From Nitrospira sp. (GTDB lineage Bacteria > Nitrospirota > Nitrospiria > Nitrospirales > Nitrospiraceae), in NCBI GenBank assembly GCA_016788885.1, contig JAEURX010000017.1, forward strand, positions 1-64,000: a DNA stretch of 64,000 nucleotides, given 5' to 3'. How positions within the stretch are numbered: the stretch's first letter is position 1; the number at the start of each line of letters is the position of its first letter. The translations under genes and the position numbers were made by a program. Below the pieces are notes generated by a model. The model searched no databases and was not told the DNA's origin. It was given only the letters and a program-made list of their open reading frames with translations. This document shows, piece by piece, positions 28,921 through 64,000 of this stretch.

Positions 28921-31868
28921 CGCACCGGCCTCAAGAGCTTCGCATACAACTCCCGATAACATTCAATCATGGTTTCAACCGAAAATTTCTCCTGTGCACG
29001 CTTTTTGTTTATGAGGCCGATTGAGGAACATTTGGCGTGATCTTGCAACAAGTCTAAGATCATGTCGGCCAAGCGGTCACCATTTCCTGGTGGAGCTAGC
29101 CACTCACGCGTCCCAAGAATTTCTGCGAGCCCCCCTACGTCATAACCAACAACTGGAATCCCATAGTTCATAGCCAGAACGCTCACATGGCCGAAGCTCT
29201 CCTTCCAGACAGGCGCCACAAAGACACCCATTTCTTCATACAGTGCAGGAAGCTCTTCATATGATACATAGCCAGTAAATCGAAACGCGTTGGAGACCCC
29301 ATGGAGCTGCACAGTTTTTTGGTACGTCTGCAGCAAGGCACCACCTCCAACAATTAGCGCCTTCGTGCTCGGCCGGCGCATGACAACTTTAATAAACACA
29401 TCGATTGCTTGGGGCGATAGCTTATCCTCTTCAAGCCGATAGACCATCCCGATGCAATCCCGTGGTGCATCCACACTGTGCTTCCTTCGAAAAACACTAA
29501 AATTGCTCCCAGGATAAATGACGAGGCTCTTCCTATCTCGCCGCCCAAAGGTTTCCAACACATAGTCACTGACATAAACATAGCGGGAAATTGCCTCGCC
29601 CCAGTAAGGGGTCACCGGCGTGTTGACATTCTCAACAATTCGACATCCAAACTTGTTCGCTGCATTCAAGGCCGCCTCGTACCAGGCCTTATCTGTCTCG
29701 CCCCAATAATGGACGTGAAAAAGGTTCGGCCTAAAAGTGCACAGGTAGCTGAAAATCCCTTTCTCCAAATCGTCAACGCAAGACAATTCGTGCTCATGAA
29801 TGACCACCCCTGTGTAACTCGGCGGATCAGGCTGAAACCTAGTAATGATCTCCTGTTCATATTGGTGGCCCAGTCGCTCAATTAGATCAACGACCAATCG
29901 AGAAGATCCTCCAATATTAAAGTTCGCAATGGCATGAACCACCTTGGGGCGGCTACTCTCTATCGGACGCATGATCCGTGCTTCATATGAATTGCATTGA
30001 GGAGCAGGAAGGTGCCGATGGTCGAACCACCGCCTAACTCTCGCAGTTGCTCCGGCAAGCCGCCGTACAAGAGCAGATGCAAATACCTCCATTACCAGAC
30101 CAACGATAGCTGTCACTGTGCGAGGAGAACCAGTCTTCGTGCGTAGTGCTCGTTGTAGACGAAAGAGTCGCGGCCCGACCAATGCTAGAAATTCTCGTTC
30201 TTTGGCCGCGAGCTGCTCCTGTAGTGAAAAAATTCGCTCATGCGCCTTGTAATACTCAAATTGCAGAGCACTAAATCGTTTCTCATTCATGATCGAAGCG
30301 GCAACATGATCGACGGATGAATCGAGATAGCACATCTCGAGGACTTCACGGATCGGTTGATCCGAGCAAATGGCCACATATGCCAGAGGGAAGCATGCAT
30401 CCCTTACGGTCACTGAAGGCACGGCTGGGCCACAGAATGTAAGCGGCATGTGTGGAGTTTGATCGGACCCGATACTCACACTGGGACGTATCCACTGTTT
30501 CAACAGGAGAACGTGTCCAAAAGACAGTTTGAGCAAATGGAGGAATTGCCGTTCCGTCATTTCGCGAAGATGAAACGGGTTCGCACCGTAATTCTGAGTA
30601 ACGTCAGGGTTTGGCGTAGAAATAATGAGCTGGCCGCCAGGCACGAGCAACTTGTGGCACTGGCGGACCACCTCAACTTGGGCCTCCTCGTTGACGTGCT
30701 CGATCATTTCAAAGCACGTGATGACATCAAATGAGTGATCGGGGAAGCTCCTCCCCAAGTCTGACCGCTTCTCGAACAAGAGCCTAGGGTTATGGTGGTG
30801 ACGCCTGGCCCAGTCAAGCGCTGTATCGTCAATATCCAAACCAACAACACTATCGGCTACTTCTGCGAGAAGTGCCGCCCCATATCCCGTACCACAGCCA
30901 AAATCTAAAACTTTTGCCCCTGCAACTCGATGCTTCGCAAACTGATATCTGGGAAGGTGCTCATATTCTGCCACTTTAGACCACGTCCCCGGCACATACC
31001 GCTCGTGCATAAACGATTTAAAATTACTACCCTCTGCCTTACATAACAGCCCTGCCGACCCAGCAAGACCGCTATTCAAGGTCGAATACTCGTCTTCATA
31101 CTTAATTTTCCCCAAACTCTCCAGAGGAAAGAGCCCGGCTATCTCCACCTTTGCAAAGTGCAGACTCGTCAAGAGTGCGTGCAACGATTCAGCAGAATAG
31201 TAGACAAGATGAGACGGTGGATGACGGTAAGCCCACCCCGCAGGATCCGCTATGGCATCATAGGATCTAGCATTAGGGGTAGTAATTATGATTCTTGTCT
31301 GAGGACCGATTGCGCCCTTGCTGAAGAGCGTATAGAACAACCCATAGGGATCGGCAAGATGTTCAATTACGTCGAACAAGACAATGAGATCGAACTCATG
31401 GGCGATGAGATTTTCCAGGCAATCTACGACAAAAAATGCATTCCCATGCCTCAAATTGGTGACTCGGCGCGCATGATCTGACACCTCTACCCCAAAGCAT
31501 TTCCACCCCCGCTGAGCCGCCACTGCCAAGTGATTTCCATACCCGCAGCCGATGTCCAATACAGATCGCCCAACTGCACTTCCCTCAAATTCATCCAACA
31601 GTTCTGCGAACATCCCCAACATGGGCTCTGTCTGAGCGTCATAGTCACAATATCCCCCTCGTTCCCCCCCTTCAAACCAGTCTTCACGGTCATACAGCGA
31701 TTTCAGCGTATGCTGCGAAGGCATCGGCCATACAAAATCCGTCGCAGAGGACGGGCAACGCCAAATCGTGTAGCCTTCAATGGAACAGAGAAACTTAGTT
31801 TGGGTTGAGCTAGAAATTGGACAAACAGGACTACCACCTTCAGGCAGAGCGGATCGGCTTACACCCAT
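28917..31868 (-). CDS. Three-module protein: two methyltransferases, coiled coil, GT4 glycosyltransferase
   Basis: A 983-residue fusion. Residues 15-50 are a degenerate zinc-knuckle segment (CPIS and CPSS where C-x2-C is usual). Methyltransferase 1 has VLDIGCGYG at 103-111; methyltransferase 2 has VLDFGCGTGYG at 320-330. A helical, Glu/Leu/Gln-rich stretch at about 528-578 (EYYKAHERIFSLQEQL) looks like a short coiled coil. From about 641 a GT4 module follows, with ANFNIGGSSRLV and ESFGHVSVLAMNYGIP, the second Glu of EX7E being Leu. SD AGGAGG precedes the ATG at 31868, which begins just after the previous gene's stop. Known chain-terminating enzymes of ABC-dependent O-antigens combine modification domains with a coiled coil, so a capping role is a reasonable guess. 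Confidence 0.85.
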   Translation of the reverse strand: MGVSRSALPEGGSPVCPISSSTQTKFLCSIEGYTIWRCPSSATDFVWPMPSQHTLKSLYDREDWFEGGERGGYCDYDAQTEPMLGMFAELLDEFEGSAVGRSVLDIGCGYGNHLAVAAQRGWKCFGVEVSDHARRVTNLRHGNAFFVVDCLENLIAHEFDLIVLFDVIEHLADPYGLFYTLFSKGAIGPQTRIIITTPNARSYDAIADPAGWAYRHPPSHLVYYSAESLHALLTSLHFAKVEIAGLFPLESLGKIKYEDEYSTLNSGLAGSAGLLCKAEGSNFKSFMHERYVPGTWSKVAEYEHLPRYQFAKHRVAGAKVLDFGCGTGYGAALLAEVADSVVGLDIDDTALDWARRHHHNPRLLFEKRSDLGRSFPDHSFDVITCFEMIEHVNEEAQVEVVRQCHKLLVPGGQLIISTPNPDVTQNYGANPFHLREMTERQFLHLLKLSFGHVLLLKQWIRPSVSIGSDQTPHMPLTFCGPAVPSVTVRDACFPLAYVAICSDQPIREVLEMCYLDSSVDHVAASIMNEKRFSALQFEYYKAHERIFSLQEQLAAKEREFLALVGPRLFRLQRALRTKTGSPRTVTAIVGLVMEVFASALVRRLAGATARVRRWFDHRHLPAPQCNSYEARIMRPIESSRPKVVHAIANFNIGGSSRLVVDLIERLGHQYEQEIITRFQPDPPSYTGVVIHEHELSCVDDLEKGIFSYLCTFRPNLFHVHYWGETDKAWYEAALNAANKFGCRIVENVNTPVTPYWGEAISRYVYVSDYVLETFGRRDRKSLVIYPGSNFSVFRRKHSVDAPRDCIGMVYRLEEDKLSPQAIDVFIKVVMRRPSTKALIVGGGALLQTYQKTVQLHGVSNAFRFTGYVSYEELPALYEEMGVFVAPVWKESFGHVSVLAMNYGIPVVGYDVGGLAEILGTREWLAPPGNGDRLADMILDLLQDHAKCSSIGLINKKRAQEKFSVETMIECYRELYAKLLRPVR

Positions 31869-51245: not shown

Positions 51246-51364
51246 GGCTAATCGGTCGTCTCGGTTAGGCACAAGAAGCGGTCGTTTCTGAGAACCGACC
51301 GCCTTATACTAGGGAGCACTCAGGCTTGTCAAATATTCAGCCCCTTCCAGAGGCGCATCAGTTG

Positions 51365-52525
51365 ATGTTCGAACACCAGTTGCAGCAACTTCAGGACCGT
51401 CACCTCCTACGCCGGCTCCGAACCATGGAATCGGGGACGGGACCGACGGCAACGCTTGACGGACGGGAAGTCATCCTGCTGTCATCGAATAACTACCTCG
51501 GCCTGGCCACACACCCGACCGTTGTGGAGGCAGCCGTCGCAGCCACAAGGCAATACGGAGCTGGATCCGGTGCGGCACGCCTCGTCTGCGGAAGCCTGCC
51601 TCCGCATCAAGACCTGGAAACAGCCCTCGCCCGTTTTAAAGGCACCGAGTCGGCACTCACCTTCGCAGCCGGTTATCTAGCCAACATCGGTGTCATCCCC
51701 TCGCTGATCGGGAAAGACGGACTCATCCTGGCCGACCGTCTATGTCACGCCAGCCTACTAGACGGCTGCCGCCTCAGCGGAGCCATGTTTCGCGTCTACC
51801 ACCATCGTGACATGCATCATCTTGAGCGATTGCTTGCCCGTCGCCCGGCAGGCAAATCCACCCTCATTGTCACAGACGGACTCTTCAGTATGGACGGAGA
51901 CATCGCACCGATGAAGGACATCGTGCAGTTGGCCGAACGGTACGACGCCATGATCTATGTCGATGACGCTCACGGCACTGGCATCCTGGGCCCCACGGGA
52001 CGAGGCACCTTGGAGCATTGCAACGTCGAGTCGCGCGTCCCGTACCACATGGGGACCTTGAGCAAAGCCCTCGGGAGTGCGGGTGGCTACCTGACCGGCT
52101 CCGCATCGTTCATTGCCTATCTGGTCAATTCCTGCCGCAGTTTCACTTACACCACTGCGCCCACTCCTGGGAGCGCCGCGGCCGCCACGGCAGCACTCCA
52201 GGTCATCCAACGGGAACCGGAGCGGCGGGCCAGGCTGTGGAGCAACCGCGCACGCCTCGCACAAGGACTCTCTCGGCTAGGCTTCCACCTGGCCGCATCG
52301 GAAAGCCCGATCCTGCCGATCATCGTCGGCGATCCCGATCGCGCCATGACTATGGCTCAATCTCTTCTCGATCACGGTGTCTATGCCCCGGCCATCCGTC
52401 CTCCCACAGTCCCCCCCGCGACCAGTCGAATTCGCCTCACGATCACCGCCGACCACACCGACGAACAAATCGATCGCGCGCTGCGGATCTTGGAACAGGC
52501 AGGGCACGCCATCAACCTGCTCTAA
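51365..52525 (+). CDS. bioF: BioF/KBL-family 8-amino-7-oxononanoate synthase-like enzyme
   Basis: PLP-dependent alpha-oxoamine synthase condensing a CoA or ACP thioester with an amino acid; with pimeloyl donor and alanine it gives the biotin precursor. Motifs: SSNNYLGLATHP, the DDAHGTGILGPTGRG loop, and the PLP lysine in GTLSKALGSAGG. Substrate (alanine vs glycine) not fixed by sequence, so KBL or sphingoid-type synthase is possible. The start is uncertain: ATG at 51365 or TTG at 51326 (AGGGAG upstream), the latter adding 13 residues. No other bio gene is adjacent. Confidence 0.88.
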   Translation: MFEHQLQQLQDRHLLRRLRTMESGTGPTATLDGREVILLSSNNYLGLATHPTVVEAAVAATRQYGAGSGAARLVCGSLPPHQDLETALARFKGTESALTFAAGYLANIGVIPSLIGKDGLILADRLCHASLLDGCRLSGAMFRVYHHRDMHHLERLLARRPAGKSTLIVTDGLFSMDGDIAPMKDIVQLAERYDAMIYVDDAHGTGILGPTGRGTLEHCNVESRVPYHMGTLSKALGSAGGYLTGSASFIAYLVNSCRSFTYTTAPTPGSAAAATAALQVIQREPERRARLWSNRARLAQGLSRLGFHLAASESPILPIIVGDPDRAMTMAQSLLDHGVYAPAIRPPTVPPATSRIRLTITADHTDEQIDRALRILEQAGHAINLL

Positions 52526-52593
52526 CCGGATTTCAGGCAGTGTTGATGGGCCGGACCACGCCTGATCCAGCCCCGTCTCTTCTGGATATTTTC

Positions 52594-52621
52594 TTGATTT
52601 CCCCCCCCCCTATGGCATGAT
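52594..52621 (+). promoter_or_regulatory. Candidate pilT promoter spanning a C10 homopolymer
   Basis: TTGATT (52594-52599) and CATGAT (52616-52621), each matching four of six consensus bases, are 16 bp apart; ten of those spacer bases are an uninterrupted run of cytosines at 52601-52610. Slippage would alter spacing between the boxes. The start codon lies about 80 nt beyond the predicted transcription start. Weak boxes; the homopolymer itself is certain. Confidence 0.4.
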
Positions 52622-52706
52622 CGAATCAGTTCGACGAGCCATGTGTATTGATTCATCCCTACGCTCGTTTATCCACACCGTTTCCTAACTCATATGGAGC
52701 GTCCCG

Positions 52707-53762
52707 ATGATTGATATCTCCAAACTGTTGACCTTTGGCGTCCAGCAGGGAGCCTCGGACTGTCACATCAGCGCCGGCGAGCCGCCGATGATTCGCCTGC
52801 ATGGCGACCTGAAGAAACTCGACCACCCGCCCCTCACGCAGGATGAAACCCATGCACTCATCTACGACATGATGAGCGACGCCCAACGCAAGAATTTCGA
52901 AGAGCATCGGGAGTGTGACTTCTCTTTCGACCTCGGCGACATTGCCCGCTTCCGGGTGAATGTGTTCGTCCAAGGCCGGGGGCTCGGCGCCGTCTTCCGG
53001 ACCATTCCCACAGAAATTCTGCCGCTTGAAAAGCTGGGAATGCCGCCGATTCTTCGGCAACTCTGCGACCGGGAAAAGGGACTGATCCTAGTCACCGGCC
53101 CAACCGGCTCCGGTAAATCCACTACCCTCGCCGGCATGATCGACTATCTGAACAATACCTTTGAGGGCCATATTCTCACGATCGAAGACCCGGTGGAGTT
53201 TGTGCACAAATCTAAGAAGTGTCTCGTCAATCAGCGGGAATTAGGCGTGCACACCTTGTCGTTCGCCAATGCGCTCCGCGCCGCACTCCGCGAAGACCCC
53301 GATATCATTCTCGTCGGAGAAATGCGGGATCTGGATACGATTCAGTTGGCCTTAACCGCAGCCGAAACCGGGCACCTGGTGTTTGCGACCCTCCACACCT
53401 CCAGTGCTCCGAAAACAATCGACCGCATCATCGATGCGTTCCCACCCAACCAGCAGGCGCAGGTCCGCGCACAGCTGTCGGAAACCCTGGAAGCGGTGTT
53501 GACCCAAACCTTGCTCAAAAAGAAAAGCGGCGGCCGGGTTGCTGCCGTGGAAATCATGGTGGGCACCACGGCCGTGCGGAATCTCATTCGCGAAGGCAAA
53601 CTCCATCAGATTCCCGGCATCATGCAAGCCAGCCAGAAGGACGGCATGCAGACCATGGACATGGCCTTGATCGATTTGGCCACGCGAGGCCTCGTCACCA
53701 AAGCCGAAGCGCAATCGCGCAGTATGAATCCCAATCTGTTCAACACGGCAGGCGCGGCCTAA
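52707..53762 (+). CDS. pilT: Type IV pilus retraction ATPase
   Basis: A 351-residue hexameric ATPase that disassembles pili from the cytoplasmic side, powering twitching and DNA uptake. N-terminal PAS-like domain, Walker A GPTGSGKST (131-139), ILTIEDPVEFVH (Asp box), HLVFATLHTSSAPKTIDRIID (His box) and the retraction-specific motif AVRNLIREGK. Ribosome site GGAG at good distance. Followed at 52 bp by a second PilT-like ATPase. Confidence 0.96.
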   Translation: MIDISKLLTFGVQQGASDCHISAGEPPMIRLHGDLKKLDHPPLTQDETHALIYDMMSDAQRKNFEEHRECDFSFDLGDIARFRVNVFVQGRGLGAVFRTIPTEILPLEKLGMPPILRQLCDREKGLILVTGPTGSGKSTTLAGMIDYLNNTFEGHILTIEDPVEFVHKSKKCLVNQRELGVHTLSFANALRAALREDPDIILVGEMRDLDTIQLALTAAETGHLVFATLHTSSAPKTIDRIIDAFPPNQQAQVRAQLSETLEAVLTQTLLKKKSGGRVAAVEIMVGTTAVRNLIREGKLHQIPGIMQASQKDGMQTMDMALIDLATRGLVTKAEAQSRSMNPNLFNTAGAA

Positions 53763-53813: not shown

Positions 53814-54977
53814 ATGGAAGTTCGCACACTCCTCGAAGTCATGGTCAAGCAAGAGTCCTCCGACCTCTATCTGACCGTCGATGCGCCCCCCATCTATCGC
53901 ATCCATGGCTCCACGCATCGAACCGATGCGCCGCCCTTCACCAACGAGCAATTAGAGTCGTTGGCGCTCGCCCTCATGCGAGGGCAGCAACGAGGTGAGT
54001 TCGAGGAGAAGATGGAGATGAACCTGGCCCTGTACTACAAGGACCTGGGGCGTTTCCGCGTCAATATTTTCCGGCAAAAGGGAAATGTCGGGCTGGTGTT
54101 CCGGCACATCAAGGCGGAAATCATGACGGTCGAGCAGTTGGATCTGCCGCCCATCGTTAAAGATATCGCCATGACAAAACGAGGGCTAGTCCTCGTCGTC
54201 GGCGCCACGGGATCAGGAAAGTCGACGACCTTGGCCGCCATGATCGATCACCGGAATACGGTGCACGCGGGGCACATCATCAGTGTGGAAGACCCGATCG
54301 AGTTCGTCCATCATCACAAAAAGTCGATCGTGACTCAGCGTGAAGTCGGTTTCGACACCCATTCGTTCGGCAACGCGCTCAAAAACACCCTGCGGCAAGC
54401 CCCGGACGTGATCCTCATCGGCGAAATCCGGGATACGGAAACCATGGAAGCCGCCATTACGTTCGCGGAAACAGGTCACCTCTGCCTCGGGACCTTGCAC
54501 TCGAATAATGCCAACCAATCCATCGAACGCATCATGAACTTTTTCCCGGTGGAGCGACATGCGCAAATCTATCTGCAACTCTCGCTGAACCTCAGGGCCA
54601 TCATTTCCCAACGACTTATCCCTTCGCTTGACAGCCGTCGAGTCCCCGCACTGGAAATCATGCTCGATACGCCGCGCATCAAAGACCTAATCAAGCGGTC
54701 GGAGATCGACACGCTGAAAGAAGCGATGGAGCAGGGCATTGACGAAGGCTGCCAGACGTTCGACCATGTACTGCTGCAACTCTACAAAGCCGGCAAGATC
54801 AGTATTGAACAGGCGCTGATCAACGCCGACAGTGCAAATAACCTTCGTTTGAAGATCAAGCTGGCAGGATTGAAAGGCGACGATGCGGTCGCGGCACTCC
54901 TAGACAAGAATGATCGTGAGGAAAAAGGGTTCCAGATCCAGGGACAGATGGGCCAGGCGGCAGGCAAGAAGCGTTGA
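53814..54977 (+). CDS. pilU: PilT-family ATPase, PilU-like
   Basis: A 387-residue paralogue of PilT: Walker A GATGSGKST (130-138), HIISVEDPIEFVHH, HLCLGTLHSNNANQSIERIMN, and IKDLIKRSEIDTLKEAME where PilT has AVRNLIRE. In pseudomonads PilU acts with PilT in forceful retraction. The tail (DREEKGFQIQGQMGQ) is extended beyond PilT. Strong ribosome site AAGGGG upstream of ATG at 53814. Confidence 0.92.
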   Translation: MEVRTLLEVMVKQESSDLYLTVDAPPIYRIHGSTHRTDAPPFTNEQLESLALALMRGQQRGEFEEKMEMNLALYYKDLGRFRVNIFRQKGNVGLVFRHIKAEIMTVEQLDLPPIVKDIAMTKRGLVLVVGATGSGKSTTLAAMIDHRNTVHAGHIISVEDPIEFVHHHKKSIVTQREVGFDTHSFGNALKNTLRQAPDVILIGEIRDTETMEAAITFAETGHLCLGTLHSNNANQSIERIMNFFPVERHAQIYLQLSLNLRAIISQRLIPSLDSRRVPALEIMLDTPRIKDLIKRSEIDTLKEAMEQGIDEGCQTFDHVLLQLYKAGKISIEQALINADSANNLRLKIKLAGLKGDDAVAALLDKNDREEKGFQIQGQMGQAAGKKR

Positions 54978-57572: not shown

Positions 57573-60500
57573 TCAATGCCAGTTTGCGGCAAGAATTTGC
57601 TGCACGTCTTGTGGGCGCTGGGCAATGGCCTGATCCCAGCTTAGCCCGGTTTGCTGCGTGAATCCCGCCATAGCTTGGATGAGTTGATTCACCTGAGTGC
57701 TCATCAATTGTTGACCGTTACCGACCTGGACCGTTTCCACTTGGTTGGATGCTCCTGCATACCAGTTAGCAATCGTCACCTGATCCGTCGAACCATACAC
57801 TGCAATACGCAAATCATTGGCGCTCTGACTCAACATGAGATCCAAGGGATCGATTCCGGATGCAAAACTCAATCGATCACCAGTTCCACTGGCATCCGTA
57901 ATGGTGTCCTGTCCATCTCCGCGAGCAAACTGGAACACGTCATTACCCGTCCCACCATTGAGCGCATCATTGCCTTTTCCACCAGACAACGTATCGTTGC
58001 CGTCGCCACCTGCCAGTGCGTTATTGCCGGCGTTGCCCGTCAGCACGTTGGCCAGAGTATTACCCGTGCCGTTGATGGCGGCTGTTCCCGTAAGAGTAAG
58101 ATTTTCGACATTCGCGCCCAACGTCCAAGTCACTGAGCTTTGCACCGTATCGATGCCGGCATTCAGTGCCTCAACCACCGTGTCTCCCGCCCCGACCACA
58201 TACGTGTCATCTCCGGCACCGCCGGTCAGTGTGTTAGCCGCGTTATTGCCGATGAGAATATTATTAAGCGTGTTCCCTGTCCCATTGATAGTCCCTGTGC
58301 CTAACAGAGTGAGGTTTTCGACATTCCCAGCGAGTGTATGAGTCACCGAACTCTGAACGGTATCGATCCCGGCATTTATCGCCTCGATGACCGTATCCCC
58401 TGCGCCAACAACGTACGTGTCGTTTCCTGCGCCTCCGGTCAACTTATTGGCGGCACTATTTCCGATCATGAGGTTGTCCAGGCCATTCCCCGTCCCATTG
58501 ACCGCGGAAGTACCGCTTAGCGTCAGGTTTTCGACATTGGCGCTCAGTGTATAGGTCACAGAGCTCTGAATCGTATCAATGCCCTCGCCGACTAATTCCG
58601 TGACCTTGTCGCCGACATTGTCCACGATATACAGATCATCCCCCTGCGCTCCAATCAGCGTGTCAGCCCCAGCCGCTCCACTGAGAATATTTGCCGCGCT
58701 ATTGCCTGTCAGGGTGTTAGCAAGACTATTACCTGTTCCATTGACAGCAGTAATGCCGGTCAAGACGAGATTTTCGAGATTCGTCTCCAGCGTCCAACTG
58801 ATATCAGACTTCACGGTGTCGGTCCCGGCACCCGCCGACTCTACCACCGTGTCGCCAACGCCTACCACGTAGGTGTCGTTCCCCGCTCCTCCGGTCAAAA
58901 CATTTATCGCACTATTTCCAGTTAGAATATTGTTGAGAGAATTGCCGGTACCATTGATAGCAGCACTTCCGGTGAGGGTCAGATTTTCTAGATTCGAGCC
59001 CAGTGCGTAGGAAAGGCTGCTTTGCACAGTATCCGTACCTTGTCCGGCCGTTTCCGTCACCATGTCGTTGATAGTGTCGACAACATACACATCATTCCCG
59101 GTCCCGCCGGTCATGAGATCCTCGCCCGTGCCCCCGTCCAACGTATCATTCCCCGCGCCGCCCGAGAGAATGTCGTCTCCACCTAATCCCAGCAGTGTAT
59201 CGTTGGTCACATTTCCGTAGAAATAATCCGTGTCTTCGGTACCGACCAGATTGACACCTTCCGTGTGAGCCAGCATGGCGTTGTAATCCCACATCGTCCC
59301 ATCGCTGAATTGGATTCGATCAACGCGCAACGCATCAAATGAGAAAAACCCGCCAAGGTTCACTTGATCCTCAGTACCATTGAGCGTCAGGATGGCATCC
59401 CTGCCAAAATCAGGTGTAGCACGCAACGTGATATCGCCAGACGTAATTCCATCGATCAATTGGAGCGTATCGATGTCCGCACTGTCTCCTTGCTCATCGA
59501 TGCTATCTTGTCCATACCCGCGGCCGAACACATAGATATCGTTTCCACCATAGCCCTCCAGAAAATCGTTTCCGGCGCCTCCGTCAAGCGTATCATTACC
59601 CAAAGACGCCAGGATTTGATCGTTCCCACCGAAACCCTGCATAACCTCATCTCTCGAAGTCCCATAAAACGAGTCATCGGCCTCACTACCGACAAACGTC
59701 ATCCGGCTTTCGATAGCAGCGAACTCCCAAACCGTGCCATCAGCGAACACAAGCTCATCGACCGTCTCGCCTGGCAATGAAAAGTATGAGCGCACCGTCA
59801 ATTGATCAGTCGTTCCCGTGACCCTTAGGACTAGGTCGTTGCCATGGTTCTCAACGATGAGATCGCCGGGAACGATGTTCGACAAAAACTCCACCCGGTC
59901 AAGGCCCGTTCGCGCATACCATTGCACACCTGTTTCCACCGTGTCCTGCGCATACCCACGGCCGAACACGAATGTATTGTCGCCAACCCCGATCAGCGTA
60001 TCATTACCCATCTGTCCATCAAGCCGGTGAGAACCTGACAGTTCATTGTCTAAAGCATTGCCGATCAAATTCACCTGGGTCGTCGGGCTAAGAAACCGAT
60101 CATCCTCAATCCTCACGTTTTCGACGTTGTCCGACGCCTGAAAGGTAAGCGACTCGGTCGGAGTGAGGTACACCGTGTCACGGCCTGCATTTACTTCCTC
60201 GATGATGACTTGGCCCATAGACCGAAGGTGGTACTGATCGTCCCCTGCACCACCGAACAGCTGGTCACCAACACCTGCCGACTCCAAAATGTCATTGCCT
60301 TCGCCACCACGCAACAGGTTGAATCCTTCGTTTCCATAGAGTCGGTCGTTTCCAGCGCCACCATCTAATTCATCATCACCTTCTTCACCTTGCAAGACAT
60401 CATTACCCAATCCACCGAGCAACACGTCGTTGCCTCCACGCCCATGGAGCCAATCCTCCGTCTGGCTCCCTTGCATGTGGTCGGCAAAGCTCGTTCCTTG

Positions 60501-63500
60501 CAGCGTTCCTCCAGTTGCCGGAGAGGACAACTGGAAGCCGCGCGCAAGTAATTCGCCATCCGTGAACACCGTCCCATCGACAAATTCGAATTGGCGGACG
60601 GTATGGAAATCGGCAGGACTGCTCACTCCAAACCCGGTGATCTGAATTGAATCCTCTCCATTGCCCACGCGAAGCACCAAAGAATCGCCTGACGCCACAT
60701 CCAACTTTAGCGATTCGACGCTGATTCCTGCACCAAAAACCAAGCGATTGCTTTGCATTGCATTATCTTGGATCGTATCGGCACCGTCCCCCAAATTGAA
60801 TCGATACGTATCGACTCCAACGCCGCCGATGAGAAAGTCGTCCCCGTTGCCGCCCTGGAGATCATCGTCTCCCGCGCCGCCTTGCAGCACATCATTCCCT
60901 TCCCCACCGTCCAGCAGATCTACACCAGCCTGATTTAGAACGAAGGGCGAATCCCCGACGAGCAGGTCATCACCGGTCCCGCCATAAAGTTGATCGTCTC
61001 CGGCGTCGCCGACCAGCTGATCGCTTCCTTCGCCGCCAAACAGTTGGTCCTGTCTTGCGCCACCCCATAGCTGATCATCACCCTCTTCCCCCTCCAGCGT
61101 GTCATTTCCACCTTCGAGACCGGGAACGGTAGGGTTGTTGCCGTCGCCGTACAGAAAATCATTTCCGGCGCCACCGACGAGAAAATCATTTCCCTCTCGT
61201 CCCTGCACGTCATCGATGCCATCGCCGCCATCAAGCTCATCATTACCAAGTCCGCCATTCAGCAAATCATCGCCCGCTTCCCCGGATAGAATGTCATTCC
61301 CGTCTTGGCCAAACAGCGCATCATGACCTTCGCCACCGAAAAGCGTATCGTTTCCGACATCTCCTTGAAGTTCGTCATCGCCTTCATCACCGAAGAGTGT
61401 GTCGTCGCCCTCCTGCCCAAAGACGCGATCATTGCTACCGCCGCCCCAAAGCGCGTCGTCTCCAAGGCCGCCTTGTAACTCATCATTGTTAGCCCCACCA
61501 TCGAGAAAATCATTTCCCCCAAATCCGGCGAGCAGGTCCATCCCAGTTCCACCATACAGAATATCGTCCCCTCCGCCTCCCTGTAACTCATCTGCTCCGG
61601 CACCGCCGTCAAGAACATCGGCCGATCCTGGATCGTCGGAAAAGTCACCGACTAAGAGGTCATCTCCGTCACCTCCAGAGAGCATGTCCGCTCCGGCTCC
61701 TCCAAACAATGAATCGTTTCCCTCGCCCCCATCAAGCCAATCATCGCCTGCGAGCGTTTGAGTGAAATCTGACTCACCATACAACCGATCGTCACCGGCT
61801 CCGCCAAGGAGAATGTCATCCCCGCCATCGCCGACCAGCAAATCGTTACCGGCCCCTCCATCAAGATAGTCGTCGGCGCCAGACAGGAAAATCACAGCGG
61901 GCTGTGAGGACGGATTCCAACTGAAATTTTCATCGGCAAGACTCCACCAGCCGGCTGGGCGGTTCTCTCCGCGGAGAATATCATCCCCATCTCCTCCCAA
62001 TAGCGTGTCTGAGCCCATCTCCCCCAAGAACGTGTCGTTTCCGCCCCCACCGTCGGCATAGTAGGCGCCGCCATCGACACGAAGACCGCTGGAATCCCAG
62101 TAGTCGGCAAGGCCCACCGCATAATCGTCGCCATTCCCTCCGAGGAACATATCCCCCTCGGTCATCATTGCGTAATCATCCCCAGAACCACCGATCAAGT
62201 AATCGTCCCCGAACCCACCTATAAACACGTCATCGCCACTGCCGCCATCCAATAGATCATCGAATGGGCCGACAAATGCCCAATTGTCTCCAGAGAGAAG
62301 ATCATTGCCGCCGTTTGCATGGATTTCTGTCGCACCGAGACCTGGTGAAAACCCTTCAGACTCTCCACCACCTAGATAGACATCTACAAAGGAGCCTGTG
62401 GGGAAACCCGCGTCGCGAGGGATCTCCGACATGTCTCGCAATTGAATTTCCATCTGACCGCTTTGAAAGTTCTCGTCGACGATGAGCACTCCATTAACGA
62501 TCAGATCGGTCCCTGACATGACATAGATGGTTTTCCCATCAAGACTCGTATACGTATTCTTGGCATCCCCGGCACGGCGAACCCCGCCTTGCAGCACTCG
62601 GTCATCAAAAATAATCTTCCCTTGAGCATCGCTATCTTCAATCCGATCCAGTCCGTCACCGGCATTATAAATGTACGTATCAAAGCCGATGCCACCTTCG
62701 AGAAGGTCAAAGTCTCCTGCCCCGCCTAGGAGAACGTCATTGCCCAGGCCTCCCAGCAGATGATCGATACCATCGTTACCCTCTAGTCTATTCGCACCAC
62801 TGTTCCCGGCAATTAGGTTATCCAACTCATTGCCGATGCCATTGAGGTTGGCCGAACCCATCAACAGTAAATCTTCTACTGATGTTCCATTGAGAGAAAA
62901 TGTCGCTGAACTCCGAATGGTGTCACTGCCATTGTTCCCTACTTCAATAACCTGATCACCAACATCGTCCACAATATAGGAATCGTCGCCTCGGCCTCCA
63001 AACATCCGATCTGTACCAGACCCCCCATCAAGAATGTCATTACCATCATCACCTTGAAGGTAGTCATGACCTCCATACCCTAATAGGGTATCGACGCCAT
63101 CGCCGCCATAAAGATGGTCGTCCGTCAGCGCATGTCCCTCTAGCATCTCAGCATCGCTACTGCCGAAGAGATACTCTCGTTGAAAACTTGGGAAAGTAGC
63201 CAGCACTTCGATTCCCGACGCCATGTCTTTGTAATGAGTTTGCGAAGGGCTGAACGGAGCGGGGATATTTGATAACGTAAGGGCTAGTCGAGCGAGGAGA
63301 AAGGCTCCACGGTCATTTAAATACTGGTCCGTCATATTACCCGCGCCACTCGACGGATCGTACAATGAAAGTTGTCCATCCGCTGTATGGCCAAGACCGT
63401 TGTAGTCCGCCCCTACTACCGCAAAAGGATTCAGTGCTCGCAACGCATAACGATAGGCCAATCCACTATTGCCAGGATCTTGGGCAGCATTCTTTAATTC

Positions 63501-64000
63501 CTCGGCCGACAATCGTGGAGCGACTCGTCCTAGACCATCCGTTTGGATTAACGGCTCAATGACATATGTTTGATTATTTAAGGAGGTTCGAACCTGCTCA
63601 ATATGGGAATAAAACTCATTGCGTGCCCCGATGTCCCCAAAGCCTCCCGTGTCATCGTTGAAGTCAGTATTGGGATCTGGATCGCTTGGAACAAACAGAG
63701 CACGAAGGGCATCCAGGGCCACTTCCAGCGTGTCGCCTTCGGCCACGTGCTCATCAACCGGTGAAGCGAAAGAGCTGGCGGCTGCCGAGGATGCAGCTTT
63801 TAAAATGCCTTCAATGTCACCCTGTGTTAGGTCAGGGTCTACCGTCTCGAAAAGTTCTTGCAGAGCCAAGGAATCAACAAGAAGCGTGATGCTATGGGTG
63901 TTGCCATACTGAGACTCACGCGGATTCTGAAGGTTGATCCCCTCGATCAATGGCTGTCCTTCTATAAGAATTTCATGAACGGGGGCGTGGATGCCAGAAT
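57573..64000 (-). CDS. Giant RTX calcium-binding surface or secreted protein (5'-truncated)
   Basis: Continuous frame to the window edge, so the N-terminus is missing; about 2140 residues are visible. After a non-repetitive N-terminal domain of roughly 300 residues come dozens of GGxGxDxLx nonapeptides that form calcium-filled beta-rolls, interrupted by several HCBP-related modules (pattern DxLVLRVxGxxDQ then a W or F-rich strand and FADGTVW). The C-terminal third holds five near-identical units of about 90-100 residues around NxENLxLxGxxxxNGTGN. The end is nonrepetitive and lacks cysteine, as expected for a type I secretion signal. No HlyB/HlyD/TolC genes are in the window. Likely adhesin or biofilm protein; no protease or lipase motif seen. 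Confidence 0.93.
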   Translation of the reverse strand, partial: SGIHAPVHEILIEGQPLIEGINLQNPRESQYGNTHSITLLVDSLALQELFETVDPDLTQGDIEGILKAASSAAASSFASPVDEHVAEGDTLEVALDALRALFVPSDPDPNTDFNDDTGGFGDIGARNEFYSHIEQVRTSLNNQTYVIEPLIQTDGLGRVAPRLSAEELKNAAQDPGNSGLAYRYALRALNPFAVVGADYNGLGHTADGQLSLYDPSSGAGNMTDQYLNDRGAFLLARLALTLSNIPAPFSPSQTHYKDMASGIEVLATFPSFQREYLFGSSDAEMLEGHALTDDHLYGGDGVDTLLGYGGHDYLQGDDGNDILDGGSGTDRMFGGRGDDSYIVDDVGDQVIEVGNNGSDTIRSSATFSLNGTSVEDLLLMGSANLNGIGNELDNLIAGNSGANRLEGNDGIDHLLGGLGNDVLLGGAGDFDLLEGGIGFDTYIYNAGDGLDRIEDSDAQGKIIFDDRVLQGGVRRAGDAKNTYTSLDGKTIYVMSGTDLIVNGVLIVDENFQSGQMEIQLRDMSEIPRDAGFPTGSFVDVYLGGGESEGFSPGLGATEIHANGGNDLLSGDNWAFVGPFDDLLDGGSGDDVFIGGFGDDYLIGGSGDDYAMMTEGDMFLGGNGDDYAVGLADYWDSSGLRVDGGAYYADGGGGNDTFLGEMGSDTLLGGDGDDILRGENRPAGWWSLADENFSWNPSSQPAVIFLSGADDYLDGGAGNDLLVGDGGDDILLGGAGDDRLYGESDFTQTLAGDDWLDGGEGNDSLFGGAGADMLSGGDGDDLLVGDFSDDPGSADVLDGGAGADELQGGGGDDILYGGTGMDLLAGFGGNDFLDGGANNDELQGGLGDDALWGGGSNDRVFGQEGDDTLFGDEGDDELQGDVGNDTLFGGEGHDALFGQDGNDILSGEAGDDLLNGGLGNDELDGGDGIDDVQGREGNDFLVGGAGNDFLYGDGNNPTVPGLEGGNDTLEGEEGDDQLWGGARQDQLFGGEGSDQLVGDAGDDQLYGGTGDDLLVGDSPFVLNQAGVDLLDGGEGNDVLQGGAGDDDLQGGNGDDFLIGGVGVDTYRFNLGDGADTIQDNAMQSNRLVFGAGISVESLKLDVASGDSLVLRVGNGEDSIQITGFGVSSPADFHTVRQFEFVDGTVFTDGELLARGFQLSSPATGGTLQGTSFADHMQGSQTEDWLHGRGGNDVLLGGLGNDVLQGEEGDDELDGGAGNDRLYGNEGFNLLRGGEGNDILESAGVGDQLFGGAGDDQYHLRSMGQVIIEEVNAGRDTVYLTPTESLTFQASDNVENVRIEDDRFLSPTTQVNLIGNALDNELSGSHRLDGQMGNDTLIGVGDNTFVFGRGYAQDTVETGVQWYARTGLDRVEFLSNIVPGDLIVENHGNDLVLRVTGTTDQLTVRSYFSLPGETVDELVFADGTVWEFAAIESRMTFVGSEADDSFYGTSRDEVMQGFGGNDQILASLGNDTLDGGAGNDFLEGYGGNDIYVFGRGYGQDSIDEQGDSADIDTLQLIDGITSGDITLRATPDFGRDAILTLNGTEDQVNLGGFFSFDALRVDRIQFSDGTMWDYNAMLAHTEGVNLVGTEDTDYFYGNVTNDTLLGLGGDDILSGGAGNDTLDGGTGEDLMTGGTGNDVYVVDTINDMVTETAGQGTDTVQSSLSYALGSNLENLTLTGSAAINGTGNSLNNILTGNSAINVLTGGAGNDTYVVGVGDTVVESAGAGTDTVKSDISWTLETNLENLVLTGITAVNGTGNSLANTLTGNSAANILSGAAGADTLIGAQGDDLYIVDNVGDKVTELVGEGIDTIQSSVTYTLSANVENLTLSGTSAVNGTGNGLDNLMIGNSAANKLTGGAGNDTYVVGAGDTVIEAINAGIDTVQSSVTHTLAGNVENLTLLGTGTINGTGNTLNNILIGNNAANTLTGGAGDDTYVVGAGDTVVEALNAGIDTVQSSVTWTLGANVENLTLTGTAAINGTGNTLANVLTGNAGNNALAGGDGNDTLSGGKGNDALNGGTGNDVFQFARGDGQDTITDASGTGDRLSFASGIDPLDLMLSQSANDLRIAVYGSTDQVTIANWYAGASNQVETVQVGNGQQLMSTQVNQLIQAMAGFTQQTGLSWDQAIAQRPQDVQQILAANWH

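Follow-up and report, generated by a model that had tools for sequence, protein, structure and literature searches.

A probable pilT promoter of fixed spacing, conserved in the Nitrospira family, and the C10 tract in its spacer

The pilT locus and its C10 tract

The window, by which we mean the whole 64,000-nt stretch that was analysed, lies on contig 17 of a 3.92 Mb genome assembled in 75 contigs. Here a bioF-like gene is followed by pilT and by a second gene of the PilT/PilU family, which is probably pilU, a name suggested by its place 3' of pilT (Table 1). The 181-nt gap between the bioF-like gene and pilT contains a run of ten cytosines that ends 96 nt 5' of the pilT start and is flanked by TTGATT and CATGAT. 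The initial annotation had reported this run and had placed it between elements resembling a -35 and a -10 box; direct reading of the sequence bore out both points. A search of 52300-52900 gave no terminator-like site, so that read-through from bioF is possible. An Rfam search over 52300-53000 gave no match up to E = 1, and the leader folded no better than its shuffles (z = -0.31); on these two grounds a riboswitch or structured leader was rejected. Further along the window, a reading frame of 2125 aa on the minus strand (57573-63950) is rich in RTX calcium-binding nonapeptide repeats, with 24 matched stretches, and it probably encodes a large protein that is secreted or displayed at the surface.

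Table 1. Features of the pilT upstream region and its flanking genes, in window coordinates
Feature	Position	Strand	Evidence
bioF-like gene (8-amino-7-oxononanoate synthase family)	51326..52525	+	TIGR00858, 473.5 bits, above cut-off; same strand as pilT
Conserved A/T-rich stretch TCTTCTGGATATTTTC, directly 5' of the -35-like element	52578..52593	+	0.929 mean pairwise identity over the 28 genus rows, every column ungapped
-35-like element TTGATT (TTGC in most relatives)	52594..52599	+	TTG in 113/113 regions with the architecture
16-nt spacer, 3'-terminal TATGG as extended -10	52600..52615	+	9-nt gap between the searched elements in 113/113
C10 tract	52601..52610	+	In this genome alone among 126 regions
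-10-like hexamer CATGAT	52616..52621	+	A2 and T6 in 113/113
Probable 5' leader of pilT	52622..52706	+	Placed from the -10 position, which would set the start site near 52628
pilT	52707..53762	+	TIGR01420, 498.3 bits, above cut-off; ATG at 52707
Second PilT/PilU-family gene	53814..54977	+	TIGR01420, 442.5 bits

The C10 tract is the sole C or G run of at least 9 nt in the window. Genome-wide there are 13 such runs of at least 9 nt and 7 of at least 10 nt; for the latter, Markov models of orders 0, 1, 2 and 3, evaluated by an approximate formula and trained on the window only, give expectations of 24.6, 13.3, 2.9 and 5.7, respectively. The presence of a C10 run per se is not clearly above chance under such simple models. 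Seven runs of at least 10 nt is the highest count among 29 genomes of the genus, the remaining 28 having 0 to 3 when overlapping hits are merged by eye. Apart from the pilT tract, the runs of this length, six in number, all fall inside reading frames of at least 465 aa; these frames include a TssF-like gene of type VI secretion and one for a CheA-like kinase. On contig 65, a HEAT-repeat reading frame of 465 aa has a G11 run (30807-30817; L053 1501-1511) about 27 codons from its start; judged by position, frame-shift switching is more plausible there than at the pilT tract.

Conservation and spacing of the upstream block

Regions upstream of pilT were picked by means of the PilT protein and not by motif. 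Searching 147 genomes of the family gave matches in 143, and a total of 126 regions was used, 28 from the genus (loci L004-L031) and 98 from outside it (30 loci and 68 stretches). Excluded were G024, in which the pilT start is missing, G049 and G064, which have less than 130 nt of contig ahead of the match, G106 and G133, which gave partial matches, and genomes whose PilT matches were distant only or absent. The two elements were recognized as a 13-mer resembling TTTTCTTGCTTTC with at most 4 mismatches and an 11-mer resembling TATGGCATGAT with at most 3.

A TTTTCTTGCTTTC-like element followed after 9 nt by a TATGGCATGAT-like element is present in 113 of the 126 regions. The gap of 9 nt is constant in all 113, and equally good elements at a different gap were listed in none of the 126. 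When the gap was left free between 0 and 30 nt, 112 regions scored best at 9 and one gave a tie between 0 and 9; the same score was reached in 3 of 2520 mononucleotide shuffles used as a control. Among the 113 regions the block lies at 35 different distances from the ATG, ranging between 46 and 116 nt, which indicates that its position is not tied to the start codon and that it stands as a separate unit. By our tally by eye, these regions carry ten genus labels (g1, g2, g3, g6, g10, g13, g15, g17, g21 and g22) and the 13 regions that lack the architecture carry eight (g5, g8, g9, g12, g14, g16, g18 and g19). Six of these 13 contain TRTGGTATAGT, which is closer to the textbook extended -10 sequence.

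Across the 28 genus rows, mean pairwise identity in the block (52578-52622) is 0.908 with no gapped columns, as compared with 0.439 and 48 of 74 columns gapped in the intergenic DNA 5' of it, and 0.682 and 19 of 89 columns gapped in the leader 3' of it. In the same rows 26 of the 45 columns are invariant, the 16 nt 5' of the -35 element included. Within the genus these 16 nt (52578-52593) are conserved about as well as the promoter boxes themselves, which is more than a core promoter needs; in many relatives they read CTTCYGG and then TATTTTC. The 9-nt gap, by comparison, is filled by 74 different 9-mers at a single length in the 113 regions, with a C content of 66% in the genus and 43% elsewhere. 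We conclude from this pattern that selection is likely to act on the length of the spacer, its sequence being much less constrained.

When species genomes were scanned for TTTTCTTGNTTT and TATGGCATGAT separated by anything from 2 to 20 nt, 43 places were returned; the scan fixes both boxes, testing the gap and the neighbouring gene only, and many of its genomes overlap the PilT-anchored set. Thirty-eight of the places belong to Nitrospira-type records; every one of these has the same spacing (a gap of 10 by that pattern) and lies 5' of a PilT gene. In the other five (Clostridia, two Eubacterium, Lachnospiraceae and Aminicenantes) the gap is 11, and the sequence covered around them contains no PilT.

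In each of the five genomes searched for the exact block, there is one match, always at pilT, with the next best site at 2-3 mismatches; a regulon motif was rejected on this basis. A related stretch on contig 13 (45492-45519; L066 1501-1528), found also in G012 and G015, has CTTGCTTTC...CTATGGCATG 5' of a rimP/nusA-like pair, names that are our reading of the translations. Its gap between TTGC and TATGG is four bases shorter than in the pilT block and its -10 (TAAGGT) differs by eye.

Nature of the promoter

Among the 113 regions the -10 hexamer is CATGAT in 85, CATCAT in 24 and some other sequence in 4. A TG one base 5' of the hexamer is found in all 113, as are the -35 TTG and the fixed hexamer positions of Table 1 around a 16-bp spacer, inside the 15-19 bp expected of the extended -10 class; in 111 the TG is part of TRTG, and TRTGn is a detail of extended -10 promoters. 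Extended -10 (TGn) promoters are described as a class of sigma-70 promoter (PMC2613000). The block shares with this class the TATGG before a hexamer with A2 and T6, the TTG of the -35 and the 16-bp spacer. It differs in having CATGAT or CATCAT where TATAAT is expected and in the further 16 conserved nt on its 5' side. The textbook pattern is itself without enrichment in this genome, TRTGGTATAAT with at most one mismatch occurring at 9 places as compared with 22 for the reversed pattern. A sigma-70 consensus scanner found no site in the region (0.3 expected in shuffles) at its threshold of 9/12, because TTGATT...CATGAT fits the consensus at just 8 of 12 positions; this threshold is a setting of the tool and not a strict definition of an extended -10 promoter.

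We consider it likely, as judged from comparative sequence, that 52578-52622 is the pilT promoter, with a spacer held to length and the C10 run a by-product of point changes. Its parts would be the -35 element TTGATT (TTGMTT in the family), the 16-bp spacer ending in the extended -10 TATGG, and the hexamer CATGAT, and a sigma-70-type RNA polymerase would read the block and initiate near 52628. The spacer, pyrimidine-rich in the genus, would have its length kept by selection while its sequence is free to vary. Where the initial annotation regarded a promoter at this site as weakly supported, cross-genus conservation with fixed spacing gives the boxes it pointed to much stronger support. In the portions of the literature consulted on Nitrospira or pilT phase variation, Nitrospira type IV pili, and Nitrospira promoters or start sites, nothing is said of this promoter.

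Since the 16 nt 5' of the -35 element are as conserved as the boxes and the exact block occurs once in each of the five genomes searched, a dedicated factor or activator might act here. In its stronger form, this explanation makes the block a target for a dedicated pilT regulator or an alternative sigma factor, its likeness to a sigma-70 promoter being partial or secondary. The number of invariant columns and their extension 5' of the -35, the single exact match at pilT in five of five genomes with nothing closer than 2-3 mismatches elsewhere, and the departure of the -10 from consensus would all fit. Nevertheless, the TG, A-11, T-7 and 16-bp spacing suit a core promoter, and TRTGGTATAGT occurs in distant genera; we regard this explanation as unlikely, if worth keeping in mind.

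Far less probable still is a sigma-54 promoter, in which GG (-24) and GC (-12), ten bases apart within TGG-N8-TTGC, would be the recognized elements and the TATGGCATGAT stretch an element downstream of them. Many relatives show the GG-N10-GC spacing exactly (of the 113 regions, 85 have GG, 101 have GC and 75 have both), but at -12 the window carries GA, as do its close sisters, and the reading fails there and in 38 of the 113 regions. Furthermore, GG lacks family-wide retention, being absent from 28 of the 113, whereas TTG and the extended -10 positions are retained in every one, a comparison that is not fully independent because TTG and the core served in recognizing the rows.

Origin of the C10 run and the question of phase variation

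An uninterrupted C10 is present in 1 of the 126 regions; elsewhere, C or G runs reach 7 nt at most (L030), and four regions have a run of 6. In a clade with support of 100/100, the four sisters of this sequence carry CCCCCCTTCC (two of them), CCCACCTTGC and CCACCCTTCC, support within the clade being weak (81/65). C10 differs from CCCCCCTTCC by two T-to-C changes and is equal to it in length. On a parsimony reading, C10 would be derived from CCCCCCTTCC by substitution in an interrupted pyrimidine stretch, two T-to-C changes in one species having fused two C runs into one with length unaltered. We conclude that the run probably reflects drift inside a pyrimidine-rich spacer and would be a by-product of it, not a selected switch.

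The initial annotation had raised the idea that changes in the length of the tract switch pilT. Slipped-strand mispairing would convert C10 to C9 or C11, giving a spacing of 15 or 17 bp and switching pilT expression in the manner of fetA, opc and porA of Neisseria. In these genes a homopolymer of around ten bases lies between the -10 and -35 elements (PMC2791445; for fetA also PMC5320596), as it does here; the C10 of the pilT spacer also exceeds the length of about 9 nt at which such a tract would be looked for, and falls within the range of C10 to C14 given for fetA in different strains (PMC5320596). The source genome, as noted above, heads the genus in C runs of at least 10. A meningococcal G10 reporter switched at a median of 1.2e-7 (PMC4085013), and rare slips are thus to be expected at the pilT C10 too; such slips would be ordinary mutation unless frequent and selected.

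Against a switch, the gap has an identical length in 113 of 113 regions, the uninterrupted run is confined to one species, with 7 the next longest, and the tract has the length of the family, without sign of a slip. In fetA the run is found in several strains at varied lengths (PMC5320596), whereas here it is found in one species and the length is constant, in a comparison made between species with one genome of the source species. Retention of the tract in relatives at differing lengths, as expected of a phase-variable locus, is not what the 126 regions display. Both mutS1 and mutL were found in the source genome, and loss of mismatch repair was rejected as a cause of tract instability; their presence is a weak argument against switching and not decisive at length 10, given that in meningococcus losing mismatch repair had no effect at G10-G13 (PMC4085013). 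Phase variation of pilT appears unsupported on this comparison, given the constant length and the explanation by substitution, and we consider a phase-variable promoter very improbable. Little different in our estimation is the chance that two point changes in a length-locked pilT promoter have created a new contingency tract, in which C11 or C9 would raise or lower PilT.

More doubtful again is the view that the C10 run arose as an error of assembly or consensus calling: its sole source is a single draft assembly of 75 contigs, but the spacer matches the family length exactly, a match that a length error would break, and substitutions of TT to CC are not a typical homopolymer error.

The source organism groups with Nitrospira metagenome-assembled genomes, which are those of nitrite oxidizers and not of pathogens. 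Were a new contingency tract to have arisen here, the population would be split into cells with more and cells with less pilus retraction, and we would be witnessing the birth of phase variation in the pilus motor of a free-living nitrite oxidizer; if the tract slipped, an environmental nitrite oxidizer would possess a contingency locus. The preferred interpretation, a pilT promoter of length-held spacer in which C10 is incidental, is of more general use in that homopolymers in promoter spacers can be checked against relatives before they are named switches. The promoter would be of an ordinary kind, and its conservation is unusually clear; the analysis defines a testable candidate for the pilT promoter, conserved in ten genera within a single bacterial family.
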